Positions 4,284 to 17,043 of a stretch of DNA of 51,865 nt are shown here, one piece after another. The translations under genes were made by a program, and so were the position numbers. Position 1 is the first letter of the stretch. Each line of letters opens with the position of its first letter. The notes below the pieces were generated by a model. It was not told the origin of the DNA, did no database searches, and saw nothing but the letters and a program-made list of their open reading frames with translations. The stretch covers positions 1 to 51,865 of IMG/VR virus record IMGVR_UViG_3300034175_000023; one strand, written 5' to 3'. This stretch comes from a virus.

Positions 4284-4409
4284 ATGTTCACTTGTATGCA
4301 GTACACCTATGCCTTACTTGAGCTTTATGACATGTATAGCAAAGGTGCAATCAACCGGGAAGAATGGCATACCGCCAGAACCCTTCTCTCTTACATCCAC
4401 TACATCTAA
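4284..4409 (+). CDS. Small early protein, 41 residues
   Basis: The product is not recognised. The frame runs from ATG at 4284 to TAA at 4409 and starts eight bases after AAGGAGAG, a strong ribosome site. The protein is rich in Tyr and Leu near its N-terminus and looks like one amphipathic helical unit with no membrane segment. It is the first gene after the control region and is followed 11 bp later by the 187-residue gene, so the two are probably co-transcribed. As an immediate-early small protein it may act on the host, but nothing in the sequence shows how. Confidence 0.65.
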   Translation: MFTCMQYTYALLELYDMYSKGAINREEWHTARTLLSYIHYI

Positions 4410-4420
4410 CGGAGTACATC

Positions 4421-4984
4421 ATGTCCTTTAACAAACAAGAGTTCAACAAATCATTCGACGCCGCTATCATCAAGCTGCAAGACGCTGAGAAGATCACCAA
4501 GGCCGTCCTGCTGACCCTCAGCCGGGAAGTGCTGGCTGCACACCATGAAACACAAGACATCGGCTACATCAACCGTGTGGTTGCCGTGCTCACTCCGGTG
4601 AACCGCAAGGTTGCCATCCTGTTCTTCCAAGCCTTCAGCGGCTTCAAGCTGGGCAAGGATGGGGTGTTTGCCACCAAGGACAAGAAGAACTACGACAAGG
4701 CGTTGGAAGCCTCCTTGGCCTTCCTCGAAGACGTCAATAATAACATCTGGAGCTGGGCAGCGCGAGAAGTAGAAATCGAACCTAAAGAATTCGATCTGGC
4801 TCGCCTCAAGAAGAATCTGGAAGCCACCCTCAAGAAGGCAACTGATAACCAAATTGACCAGCTTACGGTTTTGGAAACCATGATGGAAGCTGGCCTCAAG
4901 CTGGATACCTTGTTGGCCTTGATGGACAAGGTATCAGGCAAGGAAACAGCGGCTGAAAAGCCTTTCATCCCAGCGCTGGTTTAA
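4421..4984 (+). CDS. Early protein of unknown function, 187 residues
   Basis: Not recognised. The ATG at 4421 is chosen over one at 4364 because it follows AACGGAGTACATC and the earlier start would overlap the upstream gene. The product is rich in Lys, Leu and Ala and looks wholly alpha-helical. Its C-terminal half has heptad-like Leu spacing that could form a coiled coil. There is no signal peptide or membrane segment. Codon use is GC-richer than in the neighbouring non-coding DNA, which supports a real gene. Its place as the first sizeable early gene suggests abundant production soon after infection. Confidence 0.82.
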   Translation: MSFNKQEFNKSFDAAIIKLQDAEKITKAVLLTLSREVLAAHHETQDIGYINRVVAVLTPVNRKVAILFFQAFSGFKLGKDGVFATKDKKNYDKALEASLAFLEDVNNNIWSWAAREVEIEPKEFDLARLKKNLEATLKKATDNQIDQLTVLETMMEAGLKLDTLLALMDKVSGKETAAEKPFIPALV

Positions 4985-5220: not shown

Positions 5221-5390
5221 GCGGATTGGAGATGTGGGTTGGTATTGCCATCACTCTTACCACATTGTCGCTGTTGCTGATGGTAGGAGGCGGTTTAGTA
5301 TTATTCTTGGATTGGCTGGTGCGGAAACGCCATTGGGTCGATTCAACGAAGAAGGGGAAGCGTGAGCGTATGAACCAGCAAACGCAGTAG
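5217..5390 (+). CDS. Small single-pass membrane protein, 57 residues
   Basis: The start at 5217 overlaps the previous stop (ATGA); an in-frame ATG at 5205 is less likely. Residues of about 7-35 form a strongly hydrophobic segment (WVGIAITLTTLSLLLM and onward). The C-terminal tail of about 20 residues is very basic, so an N-out, C-in inner-membrane protein is expected. The family is not recognised. Small early membrane proteins of phages often alter the host envelope or exclude other phages, but that is only a possibility here. Confidence 0.65.
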   Translation: MSGLEMWVGIAITLTTLSLLLMVGGGLVLFLDWLVRKRHWVDSTKKGKRERMNQQTQ

Positions 5391-5569
5391 TGGTCAACCA
5401 GAAGACAGTTACATCGTCTACGTAGACAAAGTTTCAGGGATAGGGAATAGAACTGAGCTATTACCCTACCTCGGACACTTTGATCCGGCAACGAGGCATC
5501 TTTCGATGGATCGCACTTTGATGCGAAGGATCGGGGACGTAAGCCCTCACCAACACTAAAGGAACTATC
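5391..5569 (+). other. Non-coding spacer with structured repeats
   Basis: No gene is seen. CACTTTGAT occurs twice (5476-5484 and 5514-5522), the second copy within a CGCA/TGCG hairpin (5512-5525). The segment ends with CCCTCACCAA just before a ribosome site, resembling the ACCAAT ends of the two tRNA-like folds upstream. It may encode a structured RNA. Confidence 0.35.
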
Positions 5570-5854
5570 ATGGCTAAGGCATCCCGCGCTAAATACATCT
5601 CCAAAGGCCAGCGTCGTAACAGCAAGCTGGTGAAGCGTCATGCTGCACCAATCGGTGGCTCGACGGACAACGCCATGCGGACGGCATTCCTGTCCACCTC
5701 CTTCCCTGATGCTGTTCGCTTCTCCCGTATGGGCAGCGCTATCATCAAGGCAGCACAGAACGCACCGAAGCTGACGCATGACCAAGCAAAAGGCTGGTCG
5801 GCCCATCTGTCGTTCCGTACGTTCAAAGACCTCCAAGCACAAGGTGTGATGTAA
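5570..5854 (+). CDS. Small basic protein, 94 residues
   Basis: Not recognised. ATG at 5570 follows AAAGGAACTATC, the typical start cassette. The first 25 residues are highly basic (MAKASRAKYISKGQRRNSKL), as in nucleic-acid-binding or ribosome-associated small proteins. The rest is mixed helical with no membrane segment. It is followed almost at once by a 36-residue frame. Confidence 0.75.
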   Translation: MAKASRAKYISKGQRRNSKLVKRHAAPIGGSTDNAMRTAFLSTSFPDAVRFSRMGSAIIKAAQNAPKLTHDQAKGWSAHLSFRTFKDLQAQGVM

Positions 5855-6827: not shown

Positions 6828-6999
6828 CGCTGTCTTCCTGCATGATGATGGATACCGATTCAATCTGGTCTACTCATCGAAACGCAGGTTCCTCACTTCA
6901 ATCAAACGAGAGCGTAACGCTACGTTCGTCGAAGCTGTTGACTTCGAACTCCAATATATCATCCGTCCTTCTAACCTTCCTGAATACAGGAGGTTGTAA
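6817..6999 (+). CDS. Small early protein, 60 residues
   Basis: The start at 6817 overlaps the end of the previous gene, which suggests coupled translation; a start at 6763 would lie deep inside that gene. The product is a short basic and aromatic protein with alternating beta-like residues. The family is not recognised. It is followed by an AT-rich regulatory gap of 143 bp. Confidence 0.65.
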   Translation: MAIDAVFLHDDGYRFNLVYSSKRRFLTSIKRERNATFVEAVDFELQYIIRPSNLPEYRRL

Positions 7000-7142
7000 T
7001 AGTATATTAGGAGTAAGTTAGTATATTGTAGTTAGTATATAGATAGTTATTCATACTATGTGCTGCGCCCGCTTACGCTTACATAGCTTAGTATCGGAAT
7101 TTAAGCCAAAACTATACATTTATTTGATAAATAGGAGTAGAA
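6998..7142. promoter_or_regulatory. AT-rich regulatory gap with bipartite element shared with 45.7 kb
   Basis: The left part repeats (T)TAGTATAT three times. At 7092-7121 lies a 30-bp element, TATCGGAA then AAACTATACATTT, which matches 45723-45752 with identical spacing. Read on the minus strand its core is AAATGTATAG, a candidate -10 for the phage sigma factor. Read on the plus strand it sits 22 bp before the start codon of the 397-residue gene and has a GGAA-containing -35-like part, as ECF promoters do. The direction is therefore unresolved. Confidence 0.5.
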
Positions 7143-8336
7143 ATGTTTAAAGTGGGGGATAAGGTACGTTGCACTGACCCGTACGCAGATGTTGTTGCTA
7201 AGGGGGAGATTGTTACTGTTGTAAAAATTAGTGATGGTAAGTATTTGAAGTTCAGAACAGATAAGGACCGCTATTATTACTGGAGAACAGAGCGATTTGA
7301 GCCTTTGGCTCTCGAATTTGCCATTGGTGCAGTGGTTCGGTGCACGGATGCAAAGGGGGTCGCCTTAGCGTTGGGGCGAGACTATGTGGTGCGTCGTATC
7401 ACAGGTCACCTTCTGTGTGTTGAAGGTGTAACAGGTGGCCTCAGTAAGAAGCGCTTTGAAGTTGTTAAAGCTGCTCCTGATGTGCCTGTTCCTCCACCAG
7501 AGAAAGCAGCTATCACGGCTGAACAACTGCGAATGGCCCTTCATGAGAAGGCAGCCAAGACCAGCGGAAATGGGGCAGTTACTCAATTCGCAGTTGTTCG
7601 TAAGGGTCGTGTTGATCCCGATTTCTACATGTCCCCTCCATGCTACGCTTCTTTTAACGATCCCCTCATCCCTCGAATGCAATTTGCCATAAGCTCTCGT
7701 GGTTACCAGAAACAGCATGAGGGTCAGGAAGAGCAGGCGAAACCGTATATTAACTGGCTGATCAATGAATCGCCATATGCCCCCTGCTTCATCACAAAGG
7801 ACGTAGAAGACGCCTGGAAGCATGGCCTGTCCCTTGACTGCAACAAGACTCCGGGACAGCTTATCGGGGCTGCTACGGTGTTCCGTGAAGGCACTGAGTA
7901 TCGACAACAATTAGAGATGTTCAACTGGGCATTGGACCAAGGGTATGACGGCAATGTGGCTTACCTTCTTTGCTGCACTGTTACCAAGGGCGTCCACCAT
8001 TTTATCAGGAAGCATATGTCCTCTGGTCATCGTGCTTTGTCAGAGAACATTGGAAGCGACGATCTGCTGTCTTTCTTCGCTAACGGATTCTCGGATAAAG
8101 GGAAGAAACCATCAAACGAATCCACTGAGCGCTATGAAGTGACTGCTGCGGTAGGTGCGGGGGATGGTTACGGGAGAAATCTCCCAAAAGGTCTTGAATT
8201 TACCACATTCATTGACGCGAATTTGCCGGGCACTCAAACTGGTACGGGGTGGAATGCATCATTAAAATCCACTGAAGAAGACATCAAGAAGTATGCACAA
8301 TCCCTTCAACAAGCAATTAAGGAGCACAAGAAATGA
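7143..8336 (+). CDS. Unrecognised 397-residue protein with two SH3-like repeats
   Basis: The N-terminal part has two related units of about 50 residues (about 1-54 and 57-108). Each has the pattern hydrophobic-G-x-x-V-R-C-T-D and then short beta strands, like SH3 or KOW barrels that bind peptides, cell wall or RNA. A short linker rich in Pro and Ala leads to a C-terminal domain of about 270 residues that I do not recognise. It contains several Cys (LLCCTV) and conserved-looking His and Trp residues. ATG at 7143 follows ATAGGAGTAGAA. It opens the amidoligase/ATP-grasp cluster and overlaps the next gene in ATGA, so it probably belongs to that pathway, perhaps binding or being its substrate. Confidence 0.85.
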   Translation: MFKVGDKVRCTDPYADVVAKGEIVTVVKISDGKYLKFRTDKDRYYYWRTERFEPLALEFAIGAVVRCTDAKGVALALGRDYVVRRITGHLLCVEGVTGGLSKKRFEVVKAAPDVPVPPPEKAAITAEQLRMALHEKAAKTSGNGAVTQFAVVRKGRVDPDFYMSPPCYASFNDPLIPRMQFAISSRGYQKQHEGQEEQAKPYINWLINESPYAPCFITKDVEDAWKHGLSLDCNKTPGQLIGAATVFREGTEYRQQLEMFNWALDQGYDGNVAYLLCCTVTKGVHHFIRKHMSSGHRALSENIGSDDLLSFFANGFSDKGKKPSNESTERYEVTAAVGAGDGYGRNLPKGLEFTTFIDANLPGTQTGTGWNASLKSTEEDIKKYAQSLQQAIKEHKK

Positions 8337-8950
8337 ACGTATTCATCGTCAATGGCAGTAACCAGTATTACGAATTGTTTGCAAGCCTCGGTCACACTAT
8401 CACGAGCAAGCTCGAAGAAGCGGACCTGATGATCTTCACCGGGGGTGCAGACGTCAGCCCAGAGCTGTATGGTGACTTCATGCATGCCCTCACCGGCAAC
8501 AGCCCGGAACGTGACAAAGAAGAGGTGAAATATTACAACTTCGCTGTCAAGAACGACATCCCAATGGTCGGCATTTGCCGGGGTGCTCAGTTCCTCAATG
8601 TAATGTCTGGTGGTCGTATGTACCAGCATGTCACCCGCCATACCCGTGCTCACGTCATTACAGACGTTTTGAGCGGCGAAACGGTGTACGTCAGCAGTAC
8701 CCACCACCAGATGATGATGCCGTCTCCTGAGGCCCTTCTGGTGGCTACAGCAGCCCTTGGTGGTGAACGGGAATGGTTTGACATCGGTGTTGCTCGCAAA
8801 GACATCAGCAAGGAAGACATCGAAGTGGTGTACTACAAGCATACCAATTGCTTGTGCTTCCAGCCGCACCCGGAATTCGACTCCCCTGAATATCAGGGCA
8901 TGCGGATCTATTTCAAAGGCCTTCTGCAACGTTTCCTTGGGGTGCAATAA
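8333..8950 (+). CDS. Class I glutamine amidotransferase / gamma-glutamyl hydrolase-like protein
   Basis: Class I GATase domains hydrolyse glutamine or gamma-glutamyl bonds. The protein has 205 residues. The nucleophile elbow is GICRGAQ with Cys82, and the catalytic pair is in QPHPEF with His179 and Glu181, so the triad is complete. An N-terminal Rossmann-like region has FTGGADVSPELYG, typical of peptidase C26 / PuuD-type hydrolases that act on gamma-glutamyl compounds. It overlaps the previous stop by 4 bp and its own stop overlaps the next start. In the cluster it may release ammonia for amide formation or trim a gamma-linked product. The exact substrate is unknown. Confidence 0.85.
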   Translation: MNVFIVNGSNQYYELFASLGHTITSKLEEADLMIFTGGADVSPELYGDFMHALTGNSPERDKEEVKYYNFAVKNDIPMVGICRGAQFLNVMSGGRMYQHVTRHTRAHVITDVLSGETVYVSSTHHQMMMPSPEALLVATAALGGEREWFDIGVARKDISKEDIEVVYYKHTNCLCFQPHPEFDSPEYQGMRIYFKGLLQRFLGVQ

Positions 8951-9321
8951 TGAAACTCCATGAATTTCTCAAAGCAGTAAAAAAAGATTGGTGGGACTTG
9001 AAGAGAAGCAGCGATCACCTACCTTGTTTTGCCAATCGCTTTAGCGTGTTCGATACAATGAACACCCCCGAACTGATTACTGCATACATCAAACATGCCA
9101 GTGATAAATGCGATAATGATGTTCTGGTGTTTAGTGTTACGGCTGAAGAGGAGTGCTGGGATGCATGGAAAGCCTATGCCAAGGCAAACCCTCGCACATT
9201 CAAAGTGGTAGAAGGCGGCTCGATTCATGACATGTACATGTGCCGTATGTACATCTACACCAAGCCTAAGGCGCAGCGTAAGTTCCATCCGGATAACATC
9301 AAGAGTTTCCGGCCTCGTTAG
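8950..9321 (+). CDS. Unrecognised 123-residue cluster protein
   Basis: No family is recognised. It is a mixed alpha/beta soluble protein with a central hydrophobic strand (DVLVFSVTAEEE) and a basic C-terminus. The start overlaps the stop of the GATase gene (TAATG), and the next gene follows after 8 bp with its own AGGAACTATC site. Its conserved position between a GATase and an ATP-grasp ligase suggests a role in the same pathway. This is inferred from context only. Confidence 0.75.
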   Translation: MKLHEFLKAVKKDWWDLKRSSDHLPCFANRFSVFDTMNTPELITAYIKHASDKCDNDVLVFSVTAEEECWDAWKAYAKANPRTFKVVEGGSIHDMYMCRMYIYTKPKAQRKFHPDNIKSFRPR

Positions 9322-9329
9322 GAACTATC

Positions 9330-10028
9330 ATGGCTAACATTTGTGTAATTCACCCCACCATCTCAAAAGAAAGTGCTGAATACCTCGCACAAGAGATGGG
9401 TTGGGATGTCTGCAACCCCTTCAAAGAGAACAAGAGAGACTTCAGTGAATACCTTGGCGTATTTAACTACGGTTGCAATCGAAAGATTGTTGCTAAAAAT
9501 GTCATTAACAAGAGCAAATCCGTGGCGACGTGCATCAATAAAGTGGCTACGTACGAGGTATTCAAGAAGGCTGGTGTGCCCACGGTAGCTTACGTAACTA
9601 ACAAGCGTCTCATTCCTAAGGATTGGGAGACTGTTGTGGTCCGCAAGGAAGTGGATGGTGCGCAAGCTAAGGACTTGGATTACTGGTATCCAAAAGATGG
9701 TTCGGGCAACCCTTGTCCAGAAGGTGCCTTGTTCACAGAATACTTTCCACATGTGAGAGAGCTTCGTGTGGTTGTATTCTGCGAAAAAGTAGTGGCGGTC
9801 TATAAGAAGGTGGACCAGTTAGGCTCTTGGGAATTTGTTCCCATCACCTTCTCGGTCTGCAAAGGACAAGTGGCAGCAGACGCTATCACGGCCGCTAAGG
9901 CTCTCGACATCGACTATGTAGGGTTTGATGTCCTTGTGGCAGAAGATGGATCCTACCGCTTCCTAGAGGCTAATACGGGGGCTATTTTGACTCACGGTGT
10001 CTTGAAGAAGATTAAGCAATACCTGTAA
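9330..10028 (+). CDS. ATP-grasp ligase, RimK-like (first of two)
   Basis: ATP-grasp enzymes join a carboxylate to an amine through an acylphosphate. The protein has 232 residues. The central region has the strand and lysine pattern of the ATP-binding fold (VVVRKEVDGAQA, then VRELRVVVFCEKVVAVYKKV). Near the C-terminus is the metal-binding pattern FDVLVAEDGSYRFLEANTG, where Asp, Glu and Asn coordinate Mg-ATP. The N-terminal pre-grasp domain is short. The start follows TTAGGAACTATC. A second, divergent ATP-grasp gene lies at 14023-14760, so two ligation steps are likely. Two tRNA genes follow immediately. Confidence 0.85.
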   Translation: MANICVIHPTISKESAEYLAQEMGWDVCNPFKENKRDFSEYLGVFNYGCNRKIVAKNVINKSKSVATCINKVATYEVFKKAGVPTVAYVTNKRLIPKDWETVVVRKEVDGAQAKDLDYWYPKDGSGNPCPEGALFTEYFPHVRELRVVVFCEKVVAVYKKVDQLGSWEFVPITFSVCKGQVAADAITAAKALDIDYVGFDVLVAEDGSYRFLEANTGAILTHGVLKKIKQYL

Positions 10029-10037
10029 TACAAATTC

Positions 10038-10114
10038 CTCACCTTAGCTCAGATGGATAGAGCAACAGCCTTCTAAGCTGTGGGTCACTGGTTCAAATCC
10101 AGTAGGTGAGACCA
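10038..10114 (+). tRNA. tRNA-Arg (anticodon TCT)
   Basis: The cloverleaf is complete: acceptor CTCACCT/AGGTGAG (7 bp), a D-arm, anticodon stem ACAGC/GCTGT with loop CTTCTAA, and a T-arm with TTCAAAT. CCA is encoded (ACCA at 10111-10114). It reads AGA codons, which are common in this phage but rare in many GC-rich hosts. It lies between two genes of the amidoligase cluster. Confidence 0.95.
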
Positions 10115-10120
10115 ATCAAA

Positions 10121-10196
10121 GCTAGTGTGGCCGAACAGGTAGAGGCTCTGGCCTAAAAGACCGGGAAATGTGTGAGTTCGATTCTCACCACTAGCA
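10121..10196 (+). tRNA. tRNA with unusual anticodon loop (AAA or TAA; isotype uncertain)
   Basis: The acceptor GCTAGTG/CACTAGC and the T-arm GTGAG-TTCGATT-CTCAC are perfect. The anticodon arm is CTGGC-CTAAAAG-ACCGG, with a C-A mismatch at its closing pair. Taken literally the loop gives anticodon AAA (Phe), almost unknown in bacteria. A one-base shift gives TAA (Leu). The variable loop is 7 nt. CCA is not exactly encoded (ACCCA follows). It may be a modified, recoding or decaying tRNA. Confidence 0.8.
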
Positions 10197-10223
10197 CCCA
10201 AATCTAGATAACAAGGACTCAAT

Positions 10224-11564
10224 ATGTGCGGTATCGTCGGTATGGCAGGTGAAGTAACAGCGCAGCATGAAAAAGTGTTGCGTACGTTGTTGGTGTTGGA
10301 CTGCATTCGTGGTGAAGACAGCACAGGTATCGCTGTCGTGCCTCGGGCTACGAACAATGTGAAGATTGCCAAGCAAGTCGGCGATCCTTTCCAACTGTTC
10401 GACCACAAGAGCTATGACAAGGCTCTGCAAGGAACCCACCGCTGCATCATCGGTCACAATCGATACGCCACCTCGGGGGCGGTAAGCCGTGTTACGGCAC
10501 ACCCTTTCGAGAACGACAGCTTCGTAGGCGTGCACAATGGCACCCTTAAGAACAAATGGAAGCTGGCCGATGCCAATCAGTTCACGGTGGACAGCGAGAA
10601 CCTGTATCACCACATGCATTTGCACGGTCTCCATGACCTGCTGGCGACCATGGACGGTGCATGGGCACTGGTGTGGTGGGACAAGCAAATGGAGAGCTTG
10701 AACCTCCTGCGTAATAAGGAACGCACCCTCTTCTACGCAATGAGCAAAGATGAGAAAGTGATCTTCTGGGCATCCGAATACTGGATGTTGCATGCAGCAT
10801 TGGGCCGTGCTGGGATCGACTACACGAATGTCGAAATCCTCCCAGAAGACACCCATGTAACTATCAGCATTGGCAAAGATGGAAAGCTTTCCAAGCCAAT
10901 TGCTCGTAAAGCTCCAGGTACGTATGTTTTGCCTCCAGCACCTCCTGTGAACAATAACACCTACTGGGACCCTCAGAAGAAGGTGCATGTCACTCGTCCT
11001 GCTGCTAACAATGTCTGCGCTATCACCTTGAAGAAGGAGGAACCGGCGGTAGCCACACAAAAAAAGCTCGAACCAAGCATCGCCGGGGCGCGCCCTTGTT
11101 ACGATGCTTCGTACATTAACGCCAAAGACCGTACTCTGGAGCTTCTGAGCGCTAACAAAGACCACATGAAATACTCCTACATCTCCTGTTTCGATGCTTC
11201 GAATGAAGCCTTCGAGATTCGTCTGTATGCCGAAGATAAGAGCATGTTGTGGGAAATGATTGGCGAAGAGATTACCGCCGATATCTGTGGTTGGAATGCT
11301 GGCAACTCCATTGCAGGTCGCGGCTACTATGTGGTCAATCCCTCCAAGGTGGCCCTCATCTTGCCTGAGCTGGATGAAACTATCATGGGGCCTGCTGGCA
11401 AGCTGATTACGGAATCTGAGTTCCATAAGCAGTATTCGACCTGTGATTATTGCAGCCAGCCTTTGGAATTCGCTGGTGGCAATCGCTGGACAACTGGTGG
11501 GGAGTGCATTTGCCCTTCCTGCTCTAAAGATGAAGAAGTTTTGAAATACGTTAATCTTTGCTAA
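10224..11564 (+). CDS. Class II (Ntn-type) glutamine amidotransferase with C-terminal zinc ribbon
   Basis: The protein has 446 residues. It starts MCGIVGMAG, so Cys2 becomes the N-terminal nucleophile after Met removal. The glutamine-site motifs GHNRYATSGA and VHNGTLKN follow, as in GlmS/PurF/AsnB GATase domains. The domain ends near residue 230. The middle is a Pro-rich linker and a region I do not recognise. The last 40 residues carry two Cys pairs (CDYC and CPSC) forming a probable zinc ribbon. No synthetase domain is fused, so ammonia would pass to a partner such as the amidoligases encoded next. It lies 24 bp after the tRNA pair. Confidence 0.88.
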   Translation: MCGIVGMAGEVTAQHEKVLRTLLVLDCIRGEDSTGIAVVPRATNNVKIAKQVGDPFQLFDHKSYDKALQGTHRCIIGHNRYATSGAVSRVTAHPFENDSFVGVHNGTLKNKWKLADANQFTVDSENLYHHMHLHGLHDLLATMDGAWALVWWDKQMESLNLLRNKERTLFYAMSKDEKVIFWASEYWMLHAALGRAGIDYTNVEILPEDTHVTISIGKDGKLSKPIARKAPGTYVLPPAPPVNNNTYWDPQKKVHVTRPAANNVCAITLKKEEPAVATQKKLEPSIAGARPCYDASYINAKDRTLELLSANKDHMKYSYISCFDASNEAFEIRLYAEDKSMLWEMIGEEITADICGWNAGNSIAGRGYYVVNPSKVALILPELDETIMGPAGKLITESEFHKQYSTCDYCSQPLEFAGGNRWTTGGECICPSCSKDEEVLKYVNLC

Positions 11565-11582
11565 CTAACTAGGAGAATTACA

Positions 11583-12374
11583 ATGTCTATCCTTATCGGC
11601 TGTGACCCTGAAGTGTTCGTCAAACAGAACGGTATCTTCCGCTCTGCCCATAATCTTATCCAAGGGGATAAGAAGAACCCTCAGAAAGTATCTCGTGGCG
11701 CTGTCCAAGTGGACGGTATGGCGCTTGAATTCAACATCGACCCTGCTGCAACGGAAGCTGAATTCCTGTTGAATGTGCAGACGGTGTACGACATCATGTG
11801 CTCCATGGTGCCAACCTATGAAGTTGTTGCTACTCCGGTGGCCGACTTCTCGTTGGAGTATTTGCAAAGCCAACCTAAGGAAGCATTGGAATTGGGCTGT
11901 GAGCCAGACTTCAACGCTTACACGCTCGATATTAACCCTCGCCCGGATGGTGAGCGACCGATGCGTACGGCAAGCGGCCACGTACATATCGGCTGGACGA
12001 ACGGAGAAGACCCCAGCGACGTCAATCACATCAATCGTGCATCAGCAGTGGTCAAGCAGATGGACTTCTTCCTGGGGCTTCCTAGCCTCGTTTACGACCA
12101 AGACACCCGCCGCCGTGAGATGTATGGACGTGCCGGTGCATGCCGTTACAAGAGCTATGGTGTGGAATATCGCACCCTCAGTAACGCATGGTTGAATAGC
12201 CCTGAGTTGATTAAGTGGGTGTTTCGTGTAGCAAAGCGTGGCGTCGAGCGTCTGATGGAAGGTGAATCTCTGGCCGCCAAGTATGGCGACATCCAAAACA
12301 TCATCAACACAAGCGATCTGAAAGCCGCTATGGCTATCATCAAAAAAGAAAAACTGGAGCTGCCAAATGCCTAA
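11583..12374 (+). CDS. Amidoligase of the phiEco32 type-2 (COOH-NH2 ligase) family
   Basis: These enzymes share the glutamine-synthetase fold and are predicted to form amide bonds using ATP. The protein has 263 residues. Signature parts are IGCDPEVFVKQNG at the start, GAVQVDGMALEFNIDPA (about residues 40-56) with metal-binding Glu, SGHVHIGW with paired His, and YKSYGVEYRTLSNAW near the C-terminus. The name comes from phage phiEco32, whose genome has a similar set with ATP-grasp and GATase genes. The start follows TAGGAGAATTACA. It overlaps the next gene by 8 bp. The substrate is not known for the family. Confidence 0.85.
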   Translation: MSILIGCDPEVFVKQNGIFRSAHNLIQGDKKNPQKVSRGAVQVDGMALEFNIDPAATEAEFLLNVQTVYDIMCSMVPTYEVVATPVADFSLEYLQSQPKEALELGCEPDFNAYTLDINPRPDGERPMRTASGHVHIGWTNGEDPSDVNHINRASAVVKQMDFFLGLPSLVYDQDTRRREMYGRAGACRYKSYGVEYRTLSNAWLNSPELIKWVFRVAKRGVERLMEGESLAAKYGDIQNIINTSDLKAAMAIIKKEKLELPNA

Positions 12375-12987
12375 AGCATCGCATGATGACCTGTGCCAGA
12401 TGTTCGACAACACGGTGAGCATGTACAAGAACAAGCCGTACAACATCATCCACATCAGCCGGGATTGCACGGCCTTGGTAAGGAACCTGCTTACTCAGCG
12501 GGAATCACGCATCAAGATCGATGAAGACAACTGGACCGCCCCAATGCAGCGTCTGGGCTTCATTAATATTCAAGGCTCTTGCCTTTACCTGACTCGTAAC
12601 CCAATTCGGCGCTATAAGACAGGTTTGAGCAAGGAAAACTTAAATGTTGCAACTCTCCCCGAGCTGCCATATCCTCGTGGGGCCATGCAAGCCATGACCA
12701 AGGTTAAAGAGCTGGATTGCATCGAACTTGGCGACTGCATCATGGGAAAATACCCAAGCTTCGAAGAAGCACTGCAAGAAGTACAATCTGGTGTGTCTGC
12801 TATGGCTTTTGATCGGCAGTTCGCAGTGGACAACCGTGGCAATGTGTTTTACAAAACTCAGCATGTCGGTATGGTTAAGCTTAACGCAAAAAGCCCAGAT
12901 GCCATTGAGTTCCACCCCGCCTTTACCCACCTCACAACCCTTCTGATGAACAACTATGAAAAAATTCTTCCAATTAGCGGGTCTTAA
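12367..12987 (+). CDS. Unrecognised 206-residue protein between two amidoligases
   Basis: No family is recognised. It is a soluble protein with mixed helices and strands. The middle contains DCIELGDCIMG, and a beta-rich C-terminal half follows. There is no signal or membrane segment. Overlaps of 8 bp with the upstream amidoligase and 32 bp with the downstream one show tight translational coupling. A fixed partner or substrate of the two ligases is therefore plausible. It should be compared with proteins next to amidoligases in other phages. Confidence 0.8.
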   Translation: MPKASHDDLCQMFDNTVSMYKNKPYNIIHISRDCTALVRNLLTQRESRIKIDEDNWTAPMQRLGFINIQGSCLYLTRNPIRRYKTGLSKENLNVATLPELPYPRGAMQAMTKVKELDCIELGDCIMGKYPSFEEALQEVQSGVSAMAFDRQFAVDNRGNVFYKTQHVGMVKLNAKSPDAIEFHPAFTHLTTLLMNNYEKILPISGS

Positions 12988-14026
12988 TAACCCAATCCCC
13001 GGCCTGTTCGGCATCGAAATCGAAGCCGAAGGTCAAGGGATGAAAAAGGTTACTAATCAGTATTGGCGTACTGAAGATGATGGGAGTCTTCGTGGTGAGT
13101 TCCCTACGAGCCGTGCTGAATTCGTCATGAAGGCCCCAGTGATGGAAGAAGAGGTGCTCCCTGCCCTCCAAATGCTTGTCAAAAGCCTTCCTAATGCGGA
13201 ATTCGATTTCAGCTACCGTACCAGTGTTCATGTCCATGTGAATGTACAAGAGCTGACGATGCCCCAAATCCTCAACATGGTATACACCTACTTGTTGTTG
13301 GAAGAGCCGCTGATGACCTATTGCGGCAAGGCTCGTAAGGGCAATCGTTTCTGCCTGCGCCTTCGTGATGCAGAAGGTATGTTGCAGGTATTGGGCGAGA
13401 TGTTCAAGAATGAATACGGCTATCAAAACGCTGGTGACAACATGCGGTATTCGGCAATCAACATGGCCGCCCTTAACAAGTACGGAAGTATTGAATTCCG
13501 TGGAATGCGGGGCAACATGGATGTAGAGGTGCTTCACACTTGGACTAAAATCCTTGGTAAGATTCGCACCTTCGCAATGCAACAACCATCTCCAAAGCAT
13601 GTCTTGGCTATCATCGAAGCTAAGGGCGCTGTTGGTTTCATGCGCCATGTTCTCGAAGAGCTTGCAGAGCCTCTGATGTATCCTAAGGTGGCTAAGGATA
13701 TCACCAGCAGTTACTCCATCTCTCTGGACCTTCCCCATTCCTATCGGACTCCTGAAGAGGTGAAACCGCTAGTGCTCAAGCCCATCATTGATGGGGACAT
13801 TCCTAAAAATCCAAAGCACGGACAGATTATTCGTCATGAAACGCGATGGTATCAATGGGAACAAGGACATGGATGGCAAGGGCGTCGTAAAGATTCAGCG
13901 CTGATTCAGCAAGTGATGATGGATGCGGGCCTTTTGCCTAAACCTCCTAATCGTCCTTTTAGGCACCCTGTGGGTGAGAATCCAATTCCCCAATGGATCG
14001 TAAATAATGAGCCACAGCAATTATGA
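12956..14026 (+). CDS. Amidoligase_2-type ligase (glutamine-synthetase fold)
   Basis: The protein has 356 residues and belongs to the broader amidoligase family, distinct from the type-2 protein at 11583. Motifs include FGIEIEAEGQG (metal-binding Glu pair, about residue 20), a DDGSLRGE strand, SVHVHVNVQ (about residues 85-95) and GSIEFRGMRG (about residue 180). The last 80 residues are basic and Pro-rich, outside the usual fold. The start lies inside the end of the previous gene, and its stop overlaps the next ATP-grasp gene in ATGA. Having two different amidoligases in one cluster suggests two different acceptor groups. Confidence 0.8.
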   Translation: MKKFFQLAGLNNPIPGLFGIEIEAEGQGMKKVTNQYWRTEDDGSLRGEFPTSRAEFVMKAPVMEEEVLPALQMLVKSLPNAEFDFSYRTSVHVHVNVQELTMPQILNMVYTYLLLEEPLMTYCGKARKGNRFCLRLRDAEGMLQVLGEMFKNEYGYQNAGDNMRYSAINMAALNKYGSIEFRGMRGNMDVEVLHTWTKILGKIRTFAMQQPSPKHVLAIIEAKGAVGFMRHVLEELAEPLMYPKVAKDITSSYSISLDLPHSYRTPEEVKPLVLKPIIDGDIPKNPKHGQIIRHETRWYQWEQGHGWQGRRKDSALIQQVMMDAGLLPKPPNRPFRHPVGENPIPQWIVNNEPQQL

Positions 14027-14760
14027 AAATCTATCCTTATAACATGCACAGCGCCTCTGCAAGGGCGCTTGCTGATGGCTTGAGGGTAAAGCTTCTCAAG
14101 ACGGAAGGTAAATTCCTAATAACTGATATTCTGATTAACTGGGGTTGTTCCCAAATTAATAGGAGGATTGGTTACGAAGTTCTTCTCAACCGACCAGATG
14201 CGATTCGAAATGCGGTTAATAAGCTCACTGCTTTTGAGATGATGGACGACGCAGGGGTTAATATCCCCGTGTTTACGGAATTGAGAGCCGGGGCCCAAGT
14301 GATATTAGACAAGGGCCCTGTGGTATGCCGCACTAAGCTTAATGGTCACAGCGGGGAGGGAATTGTAATTGCCAACACTGTCGAAGAGCTGGTTAATGCC
14401 CCCCTCTACACCCAATACATCAAGAAAACCCAGGAGTATCGTGTCCATGTTATGCATAACGAAGTGTTCTTCGTACAACGGAAGGCGCGTAAGATGGAAG
14501 TGCCAGATGAAGAAGTCAACTGGCAAGTACGTAACCTTGCTGGTGGTTTCATTTACGCCAATCAAAACATCGAAATTGACGAGGAAGCCAAGCAGCAATC
14601 AATTGCCGCTATCAATGCTCTAGGGCTCGATTTTGGGGCTGTAGACATCATCTATGGCACCGACCATCAGTATTACGTATTAGAAGTGAACACCGCCTGT
14701 GGTCTCGCAGGTACAACGCTGGACAAATACGTGGAACAATTTAAACTCTATGAGCTTTGA
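14023..14760 (+). CDS. ATP-grasp ligase (second of two)
   Basis: The protein has 245 residues. A short N-terminal region is followed by the ATP-grasp core, with VVCRTKLNGHSGEG as the nucleotide-binding loop and EYRVHVMHNEVFFVQRKARK as the strand pair. FGAVDIIYGTDHQYYVLEVN carries the Mg-binding Asp, Glu and Asn. It is similar in plan to the protein at 9330-10028 but clearly diverged, so it probably uses another substrate. It closes the biosynthetic cluster and overlaps genes on both sides by 4-11 bp. Confidence 0.85.
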   Translation: MKIYPYNMHSASARALADGLRVKLLKTEGKFLITDILINWGCSQINRRIGYEVLLNRPDAIRNAVNKLTAFEMMDDAGVNIPVFTELRAGAQVILDKGPVVCRTKLNGHSGEGIVIANTVEELVNAPLYTQYIKKTQEYRVHVMHNEVFFVQRKARKMEVPDEEVNWQVRNLAGGFIYANQNIEIDEEAKQQSIAAINALGLDFGAVDIIYGTDHQYYVLEVNTACGLAGTTLDKYVEQFKLYEL

Positions 14761-15414: not shown

Positions 15415-17043
15415 ATAGGCGTTTGCGTAGAGAAGATTGGTTCAATTCAGGTATTTCTTAAGGACGATGGTACGTACGATGGGTTTGACTTCGCCACAGG
15501 CAAGTACATTCCCGATCCCTATCACGACAAGCCCAAGGACTACAAACCTGTACCAATCAGGAAAAGTAAGGCTCAGATTGAGCAAGAGATTGCTGAAATC
15601 AATGACTACCAAGCTGTAGCCCTGCCAGACAGAAAGCTGCGTAAGGATTCGTTGGAATACTTCGGTGTCAAGATTGGCGTCTCAGAAGTAGATGGTGAAA
15701 CACCCTCTCTCCATTATTACCCCTATTATCGGGAAGGTGCGCTTGTTGGGTATAAGGTTAGGCTTATCGAAAACAAGCGGATGTGGTCTGTTGGTGACCA
15801 GAAGGACGTAGATTTGTTCGGCTGGCAGCAGGCTATTGAGGCGGGTGGTAAGAAGCTGTTCATCACAGAAGGGGAGATTGATGCTATCTCTCTTTACCAA
15901 ATCTTCAAAGATCATAACAAAGGAACACAATATGCGGATTTTAACCCTGCTGTTGTATCCCTGCCTCATGGTGCTGGCAGTGCTTCTCGTGATCTTACTA
16001 AGCATCTTAAATCCATAAGGGCACACTTCAAAGAGGTTGTGCTGGTATTTGATATGGATAAGGCTGGTAAGAAAGCAGCAGAAGAAGTGATGCTTGTCAT
16101 CCCTGACGCTGTCGTAGCTGCATTACCTGCTAAGGATGTGAATGAATGTCTCATGGAAGGGCGAAGTAAGGCAGCTTACAACGCAATTCAGTTCAATGCT
16201 AAGAAGCCTAAGAACAGCCGTATCGTGTCTGGGAACGATTTGCATGAACAGGCTAAGGTTCCGGCTGTCTATGGCGTTTCATGGCCTTGGCGGCACGTTA
16301 CAGAGGCTACACGAGGCATCCGCTTAGGTGAGACCATCTACATTGGTGCTGGGCAGAAGCAAGGGAAGAGTGAGGTGGTTAATACCTTAGCCGCTCACTT
16401 CATTAAGGAGCATGGTTGGAAGGTTTTCTTGGCTAAGCCAGAAGAATCTAACAACAAAACGTACAAGCTGGTGGCTGGTAAGCTCACTGGTAAGTTCTTC
16501 CATGATCCAACCAAAGAGTTTGATGTTGATGCGTATGACGCTGCTGGTGAAGTTCTTCAGGACCACCTCTTCATGCTTAACCTGTACCAGCATATGGGTT
16601 GGGAGAGTTTGAAGACAGACATCCGAGAGGCTGCACTGGATGGATGTAAGGCTATCATCATTGACCCAATCACCAACCTCACTAACGGGATGAATGCAGC
16701 AGATGCGAATACAAAGCTTCAAGAGATTGCGCAGGAGTTGGCGGCTATGGCCCTTGATCTTAACGTGGTCATATTCATCTTTTGCCATCTTCGCAATCCC
16801 GATGGTGGTCCACCCCACGAGCGTGGCGGAGAAGTTCTTAGTAGTCAGTTTGCTGGCAGTCGTGCTATGGCTCGATCTTGTAATTACATGCTTGGTTTGG
16901 AAGGAAATCGAGATTCAAATCTCACTCCCGAAGAGCGTAACATGCGAACCCTCGTGCTGCTCGAAGACCGAGAGTTCGGAGAAGTAGGTCGATACAAGCT
17001 GTATTGGGACAATAAGACAGGTTTGTTTAACGAAATTGTATAG
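15415..17043 (+). CDS. T7-like primase-helicase with degenerate zinc domain and non-standard start
   Basis: A replicative helicase unwinds the fork and its primase part makes RNA primers. The clear core (from TTG at 15652, 463 residues) has the TOPRIM motifs FITEGEIDA and VFDMDKAG, a RecA-type Walker A GAGQKQGKS and Walker B AIIIDPI. The frame stays open upstream to 15403 and encodes GSIQVFLKDDGTYDGFDFAT. This resembles the zinc-binding domain of related primases but lacks the four Cys. No ATG, GTG or TTG lies in that extension. ATA at 15415 sits 7 bp after GAGGAGG and is the best start (542 residues). The TTG form would correspond to the short, zinc-free gp4B of T7. Confidence 0.85.
   Translation: MGVCVEKIGSIQVFLKDDGTYDGFDFATGKYIPDPYHDKPKDYKPVPIRKSKAQIEQEIAEINDYQAVALPDRKLRKDSLEYFGVKIGVSEVDGETPSLHYYPYYREGALVGYKVRLIENKRMWSVGDQKDVDLFGWQQAIEAGGKKLFITEGEIDAISLYQIFKDHNKGTQYADFNPAVVSLPHGAGSASRDLTKHLKSIRAHFKEVVLVFDMDKAGKKAAEEVMLVIPDAVVAALPAKDVNECLMEGRSKAAYNAIQFNAKKPKNSRIVSGNDLHEQAKVPAVYGVSWPWRHVTEATRGIRLGETIYIGAGQKQGKSEVVNTLAAHFIKEHGWKVFLAKPEESNNKTYKLVAGKLTGKFFHDPTKEFDVDAYDAAGEVLQDHLFMLNLYQHMGWESLKTDIREAALDGCKAIIIDPITNLTNGMNAADANTKLQEIAQELAAMALDLNVVIFIFCHLRNPDGGPPHERGGEVLSSQFAGSRAMARSCNYMLGLEGNRDSNLTPEERNMRTLVLLEDREFGEVGRYKLYWDNKTGLFNEIV

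Follow-up and report, generated by a model that had tools for sequence, protein, structure and literature searches.

Gene Organization of the Locus

The window analyzed here is the whole 51,865-nucleotide stretch of the IMG/VR virus record IMGVR_UViG_3300034175_000023. As listed in Table 1, nine ORFs, all on one strand, occupy positions 7143–14760. A sequence-only reading had described an eight-protein cluster of mostly overlapping genes at this place. Pfam and PHROG matches confirmed its location and its GATases, ATP-grasp proteins, and amidoligases, but the number of proteins is nine. Five of the eight gene junctions overlap (by 4, 1, 8, 32, and 4 nt), while three have gaps of 8, 195, and 18 nt. 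It was found that the 195-nt gap between P5 and P6 contains two tRNA genes which were absent from that reading. The block belongs to the early-middle region and is adjacent to a primase/helicase gene. Scans for promoters and terminators gave nothing above the chance level.

Table 1. Genes and neighboring features of the amide-ligation locus in the window.
Feature	Position	Strand	Description
P2	7143..8336	+	397 aa; N-terminal part and C-terminal domain P2C (aa 141–397)
P3	8333..8950	+	Class I GATase/Peptidase C26 (PuuD-like)
P4	8950..9321	+	123 aa; closest relatives only
P5	9330..10028	+	Second ATP-grasp protein, in a clade apart from P10
tRNA-Arg (TCT)	10038..10114	+	Between P5 and P6; ARAGORN, Rfam
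tRNA-Phe (AAA)	10121..10198	+	Between P5 and P6; ARAGORN, Rfam
P6	10224..11564	+	Class II GATase with a PurF/GlmS-type glutaminase domain; ATG start
P7	11583..12374	+	COOH.NH2 ligase type 2, phiEco32-type
P8	12367..12987	+	206 aa core protein; predicted small SH3/KOW-like barrels
P9	12956..14026	+	Amidoligase_2
P10	14023..14760	+	RimK-like ATP-grasp ligase with complete motifs
Toprim/DnaB-type primase-helicase	15652..17043	+	Neighbor, not part of the cassette; follows the cassette in relatives too

Glutaminases and Ligases

P3 matches Peptidase_C26 (E = 2e-21) and phrog_7218 (E = 4e-54), and its closest solved relatives are PuuD/C26 proteins. The triad C82-H179-E181 and an HHQ motif are present, and these residues are kept in 80 of 80 relatives. 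P6 matches GATase_6 (E = 2e-17) and phrog_18128 (E = 2e-73) and has the Cys2 and HNGT residues of class II glutamine amidotransferases. The closest solved relatives of P6 are the glutaminase domains of PurF and GlmS; neither an SIS domain nor a synthetase domain was found in P6, and its C-terminal CxxC..CxxC pattern is zinc-ribbon-like.

Both amidoligases scored above the Pfam cut-offs: P7 with COOH-NH2_lig (PF14395, E = 9e-10; phrog_3815, E = 2e-87) and P9 with Amidoligase_2 (PF12224, E = 5e-9; phrog_7469, E = 6e-61). In P7, 20 of the 21 inspected positions are identical in at least 90 of 91 sequences. The fold of P7 is presumably glutamine-synthetase-like (GS-like). Sequence profiles of P7 and P9 gave only chance matches in the PDB, with no solved relative detectable, and no GshA/GCS or GshB Pfam match was found for P7, P9, or P10.

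The two ATP-grasp proteins both match phrog_2599 (E = 1e-17 for P5 and E = 6e-86 for P10). P10 scored above the Pfam cut-off with the RimK model, and its closest solved relative is the alpha-L-glutamate ligase RimK. The R2K_2 score of P10 (16.7 bits) is below the cut-off of 26.2, and P10 was not assigned to the R2K clade (CDC123-like). P5 belongs to a separate clade of 21 sequences with a support of 1.0, and this type occurs in only one INPHARED record. P5 retains the E/R/K and D/E/N residues, but the glycine-rich HSGxG loop is replaced by GAQAKDL. Thus, the earlier statement that all key catalytic residues are visible holds for P3, P6, P7, P9, and P10 but not for P5. Among cassette loci, the two ATP-grasp clades alternate or coexist.

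P2, P8, and P4

Three proteins could not be placed from the sequence alone. The two larger ones, P2 (through its P2C domain) and P8, are now assigned to the core of the cassette, whereas P4 is limited to close relatives; it was found in eight loci, the window included, and has no match among Pfam and PHROG families.

The only matches of P2 and P8 are to PHROG families without an assigned function. The N-terminal part of P2 seems, by eye, to contain two SH3/KOW-like copies. P2C is confidently modeled (AF2; pLDDT of 92.9 and pTM of 0.91). P2C has four near-invariant residues, C167, R248, E252, and H296. Its fold has no match in the PDB (best E = 0.62), and none of 65 family members matched Pfam. 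In BFVD, 13 phage proteins matched P2C at E ≤ 0.001, and all the named ones are from cassette-type phages. P2C is a core domain of the cassette and constitutes a new family. The positions of phiEco32 gp87 and PaP3 ORF49 are suggestive of P2C, but hhalign gave only 13% and 7%, and homology is not claimed.

The model of P8 has a pLDDT of 93.5 and a pTM of 0.88. No PDB fold matched P8 at E ≤ 0.001, and the top-ranked structures were SH3/eIF5A/EF-P/KOW-like. P8 has near-invariant residues (G64, R77, R81, and G86) with no obvious catalytic set. Its remote homologues are phiEco32 gp85 and PaP3 ORF47 (hhalign 88–90%). Weak matches of P8 to DUF4007 and SspB (E of about 0.002–0.009) were attributed to chance, DUF4007 being found in only one of 76 family members.

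Distribution and Co-conservation

Is this gene set inherited together? The viral loci were retrieved via P7, so that the following co-occurrence figures are conditioned on P7: P3, P6, P8, P9, and an ATP-grasp protein are present in all 49 viral loci with enough flanking sequence, and P2 in 48 of the 49. Eight annotated phages share the gene order, which is slightly altered in phiEco32 and PaP3. The sequence-only reading had named loss of active-site residues in relatives and a lack of co-conservation as grounds against its proposal. Neither was seen; the catalytic residues are near-invariant across 72–94 relatives, and the set is co-conserved in related phages. With these results, what had been a loosely grouped set of ligases becomes a core with seven defined parts, in which P2C is the best entry point and two interchangeable ligase types can be compared.

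P7 and/or P9 were found in all 20 of the nearest relatives by terminase whose contigs are 39 kb or longer. One relative whose terminase is 68% identical has neither P7 nor P9, indicating that the cassette is dispensable for such phages. Relatives of P7 numbered 11 in about 85,000 species genomes, all on MAG contigs, versus 568 in IMG/VR; by this sequence census, the COOH.NH2 ligase is nearly exclusive to phages. Phages with at least the amidoligase infect Pseudomonas, E. coli, Rhizobium, and Bacillus hosts. A gene for the gamma-glutamyl enzyme GGCT was found in 11 of 57 cassette records and is optional rather than defining; none was found in the record of the window.

Relation to the Published Cassette

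The sequence-only reading had ranked this locus as the best candidate for an undescribed system. That ranking was not borne out, as the cassette is already catalogued in many phages and is in print as a predicted "peptidoglycan modification cassette" of phiEco32, LUZ24/PaP3, PA11, CW02, and RIO-1 (PMC5498523, PMC11945000, PMC10580990). Its idea of cell wall modification is likewise the published guess, with the target only inferred; the peptidoglycan target was proposed in PMC5498523 and PMC11945000, where the prediction is attributed to Iyer et al. and Hardies et al. The suggestion of an amide- or peptide-bond-forming cluster, related to the phiEco32 set and with an unproven product, is supported.

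The window resembles the published cassette in its protein families, in the block adjacent to the primase/helicase gene, in the position of P8, and in P2C, which Zobellviridae members also have. In contrast to the published cassette, it has a second ATP-grasp clade (P5), a private P4, and two internal tRNA genes, and it lacks GGCT. The cassette and the guess about its purpose are in print, while the core roles of P2C and P8, the exchange of ligase types, and the start-codon habit of P6 appear not to be. The cassette is widespread, with hundreds of carriers among the phages that infect E. coli, Pseudomonas, Klebsiella, Vibrio, and other hosts, some of them studied for therapy, and its product is still a guess.

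Proposed Mechanism and Target

It is likely that the window carries a complete, probably functional amide-ligation cassette of Zobellviridae-, Kuravirus-, and LUZ24-type podoviruses, working as follows. I infer the chemistry and the order of every step. P6 would hydrolyze glutamine and supply ammonia. P7 and P9, as GS-fold ligases, would phosphorylate carboxyl groups and couple them to ammonia or an amine. P10, or P5 as a second type, may then attach an amino acid, probably glutamate. P3 may split gamma-glutamyl amides, and GGCT may do a similar job in other phages; such cleavage beside the ligases suggests that gamma-glutamyl bonds are both made and trimmed by this enzyme line. P2C may be an unrecognized enzyme, because its Cys, Arg, Glu, and His residues are near-invariant, and P8 may be a scaffold or a substrate-binding adaptor. 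The cassette would be active during the middle phase of infection, with the cytoplasm as its site of action. The transcription of the PaP3 cassette (ORFs 42–48) peaks at 10–30 min, in the middle phase (PMC4707531), and an ATP-grasp protein, a GATase, and a YtfP/GGCT-type protein of SU10 were detected by mass spectrometry (PMC4281155).

As the target, cytosolic peptidoglycan precursors are a tentative first choice, held with low confidence and only slightly preferred to a soluble metabolite of the gamma-glutamyl kind. Against a peptidoglycan target, the cassette was found to contain no enzyme of the Mur type. Among 57 cassette records, which cover cassette carriers only and in which the matched protein is possibly not the endolysin, 38 have a glycan-cleaving lysin family, at least 10 have M15, none has Amidase_2, and nine have no family assigned. 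The M15 peptidases, in part or in full, may be endolysins with stem peptides as their substrate, in which case simple protection of these bonds would not explain the modification.

Alternative Explanations

The cassette may instead make a soluble glutathione-like compound or gamma-glutamyl amine acting on host physiology or defense, which is possible but doubtful. Ligation by a GS-fold enzyme and then by an ATP-grasp enzyme, with recycling by the C26 protein and GGCT, fits the enzyme types of gamma-glutamyl peptide metabolism, and all cassette enzymes appear cytosolic. The occurrence of GGCT and the diversity of hosts described above are also in favor. The glutathione pathway (GshA, GshB, and ChaC/GGCT) is a working analogy, with a GS-fold ligase, an ATP-grasp ligase, and a gamma-glutamyl breaker. 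However, the window proteins are outside those families, and P2C, P8, a second ligase, and extra glutaminases are present in addition; such a pathway would not require a pair of glutaminases together with two distinct GS-fold ligases. Similarly, among solved structures P3 is nearest to the PuuD-type C26 hydrolases of the PuuA-PuuD gamma-glutamyl-polyamine pathway, but P7 and P9 are outside the PuuA family, no PuuA-type glutamine synthetase match exists in the cassette, and an ATP-grasp ligase and a class II GATase are present besides.

Tagging of host or phage proteins with amino acids or amide groups in the manner of RimK, with P8 as a substrate-binding adaptor, seems rather improbable. P10 shares sequence similarity and motifs with RimK, the ribosomal protein S6 glutamate ligase, and S6 glutamate ligases are the nearest solved relatives of the ATP-grasp protein; the predicted fold of P8 resembles SH3/EF-P-type binding modules. 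On the other hand, the N-terminal part of P10 is shorter and different, and P10 is embedded in a cassette. A conserved substrate protein was looked for in the cassette and was not found, and enzymes of the C26 and GGCT families are generally known to work on small gamma-glutamyl compounds.

A role in feeding phage translation with glutamine or amino acids, in line with the term "glutamine synthesis genes" (PMC10747016), would agree with the glutamine-handling domains and the tRNA genes inside the cassette, but it is very unlikely: P6 and P3 would consume glutamine rather than produce it, P7 and P9 are not glutamine synthetases by family, and such a role would not account for a dedicated gene set that is nearly confined to phages. 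Hypermodification of phage DNA with an amide-linked group is highly unlikely despite the adjoining primase/helicase, polymerase, and nucleotide genes, since no base-activating enzyme was recognized in the cassette and 11 of 16 restriction enzymes cleaved the DNA of the LUZ24-like phage U17, which has the module (PMC11945000).

Start Codons of the P6 Gene

The P6 gene starts with AUU or AUC in 22 of 85 loci scattered across the P6 tree, while the window copy has ATG. It is conceivable, though unlikely, that the cassette performs an undescribed chemistry, in which P2C, as a new catalytic fold with Cys, Arg, Glu, and His, would act on a gamma-glutamyl intermediate, P6 would be kept at a low dose by the AUU/AUC starts in many relatives, and the product would be a phage-specific metabolite or protein tag, not peptidoglycan. 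Automatic annotation can drop the catalytic Cys of P6 from genes with such starts. The Klyazma GATase II seemed to be missing its N-terminus, but this was rejected; the true start is ATC, which restores an intact catalytic Cys. Likewise, a P6 cloned as annotated from a phage with an AUU or AUC start, such as O4, would probably be a dead enzyme.

The cassette and its relatives

The sequence-only reading had described a cluster of amide-bond-forming genes in the window and proposed it as the best candidate for an undescribed system. The nine genes (P2 to P10) do exist and lie densely packed along a single strand, and Pfam and PHROGs confirmed the class I GATase P3, the class II GATase P6, the ATP-grasp proteins P5 and P10, and the two amidoligases of different families (P7, COOH.NH2 ligase; P9, Amidoligase_2). 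The novelty was not borne out. Annotations of CVT22, Klyazma, PA11, Pecta, phiM6, Phriendly, CW02, and an oyster-associated phage show the same block adjoining primase/helicase, while phiEco32 and PaP3 have a slightly changed order; the block was named the peptidoglycan modification cassette, with a superinfection block as the proposed effect (PMC5498523). A tblastn search with P9 gave matches in 337 phage records. Since the block is annotated in other phages and its function is a published prediction only, the window cassette is a copy of an already known, predicted-function module.

The window is an IMG/VR virus record, and its terminase shares up to 69% identity with Zobellviridae phage terminases. 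The window also encodes a primase-helicase, a sigma-70 region 2 protein, a family A polymerase, ThyX, a ribonucleotide reductase, and a phage lysozyme. Upstream of the cassette, 27 viral loci have a gene for a protein of about 190-206 residues that belongs to no Pfam family, and a window ORF is its likely equivalent, judged by position and size only. phiM6 also has two gamma-glutamyl cyclotransferase (GGCT) genes.

Features of the cassette, its neighborhood, and the P6 genes
Feature	Sequence	Position	Remark
P2-P10	window	7143-14760	nine-gene cassette
tRNA-Arg(TCT), tRNA-Phe(AAA)	window	10038-10198	inside cassette, between P5 and P6
Upstream protein (example)	L023 (viral locus)	5258-5839	
Likely equivalent ORF	window	4364-4984	
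Second, diverged class II GATase	phiM6 (L005)	6916-8022	beside cassette
P6 genes with AUU/AUC start	L002, L009, L014, L016, L021, L024, L026, L029, L031, L034-L036, L041, L042, L044, L054, L072, L077-L079, L084, L089		22 of 85 scorable genes

Are these genes kept together? A P7 search of IMG/VR gave 568 relatives, of which 80 were fetched; 49 loci with at least 5.5 kb on each flank were counted. P3, P6, P8, P9, and an ATP-grasp protein were present in all 49 and P2 in 48, figures that measure the company kept by P7 because the sample was retrieved via P7. A second sample, retrieved via the terminase, concurs, with P7 and/or P9 in 20/20 records of at least 39 kb. Thus, the co-conservation in related phages held when checked, and a search for loss of active-site residues found catalytic and other key residues near-invariant instead. 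The complete phage 468E53-1 has neither P7 nor P9. Only 11 P7 relatives were found in about 85,000 species genomes, every one in MAG contigs.

The P5 clade (21 sequences) is split from the P10 clade with a support of 1.0. Both types occur in 12 cassettes including the window and L015, a locus counted manually as its P10-P9 overlap exceeded the limit of the automatic count. The P5 type alone was found in seven cassettes with at least 6.9 kb readable beyond P9 (in one more, the contig ends too early after P9) and the non-P5 type alone in about 68. Thus, the ATP-grasp slot can be filled by either type, and the window holds a variant of the known cassette with two.

A new family and unusual start codons

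The comparison exposed two things, a new protein family at the cassette core and an unusual start-codon pattern of P6. The C-terminal domain of P2 (P2C, residues 141-397) has a confidently predicted structure (pLDDT 92.9, pTM 0.91). No P2C member matched a Pfam family, and a PDB fold search with the model gave no match. Of the BFVD hits, 13 had E values no higher than 0.001, all from phages where named (CW02, CVT22, RIO-1, GAP52, and an Aeromonas phage); an amidoligase is likewise found in GAP52, RIO-1, CW02, and CVT22. Four residues are near-invariant in an alignment of 65 sequences (C167, R248, E252, and H296, each found in 63 or more), which suggests that P2C is an enzyme. P8 is predicted to form SH3/KOW-like barrels, with no close match to its model in the PDB, and its profile comparison extends to phiEco32 gp85 and PaP3 ORF47. 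P2C and P8 are newly recognized core parts.

The start position of P6 is chemically fixed because the catalytic Cys must directly follow the initiator. Among 85 scorable genes, the start is ATG in 55 (including one ATG-Cys-Cys gene), ATT in 15, ATC in 7, TTG in 6, and GTG in 2; that of the window is ATG. In all 22 AUU/AUC genes, this codon lies immediately 5′ of the Cys codon, with a Shine-Dalgarno-like tetramer 4-9 nt upstream. An ATG is within reach at 323/332 neighbor genes (P3, P7, P9, and ATP-grasps; Fisher p about 1e-15 versus P6), a lenient comparison because neighbor starts are not tied to one codon; the chance of an ATG in a random 18-codon stretch is only 25%. Mapped onto the P6 tree, AUU/AUC starts require 18 changes, at least 13 of them forced by well supported branches, and cluster no more than with shuffled labels. 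PA11 has TTG whereas O4 has ATC, their proteins being nearly identical, and kuraviruses retain ATT at 68% protein identity. The simplest reading is that weak initiation, either selected for or tolerated, may hold the glutaminase dose low. The open-licence literature on AUU starts in phages yielded nothing on the P6 gene. Automatic annotation can choose a later ATG and drop the nucleophile; the annotated start of the O4 gene (O4_56) lies downstream of the real one, so that the catalytic Cys is missing.

Possible target and expression

The enzyme classes point to a chemistry in which carboxylates are amidated with ammonia or an amine, along with trimming of gamma-glutamyl bonds. Cytosolic peptidoglycan precursors are narrowly preferred as the target, since the published proposal is consistent with the present data and contradicted by none of them. 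That idea was taken up again (PMC11945000, PMC10580990), and a literature search found no experiment testing it. A soluble gamma-glutamyl metabolite or a protein tag as the product follows closely. DNA modification is unlikely because DNA of a LUZ24-like phage carrying the module is cut by 11/16 enzymes (PMC11945000). Among 57 records surveyed for lysins, all cassette-bearing, 38 have a glycan-cleaving family (GH24-type lysozyme in 36), 10 an M15 peptidase, 9 none assigned, and none an Amidase_2 lysin. The cassette ORFs 42-48 of PaP3 are transcribed in the middle phase (PMC4707531), and SU10 produces at least the ATP-grasp, GATase, and YtfP/GGCT-type proteins (PMC4281155).
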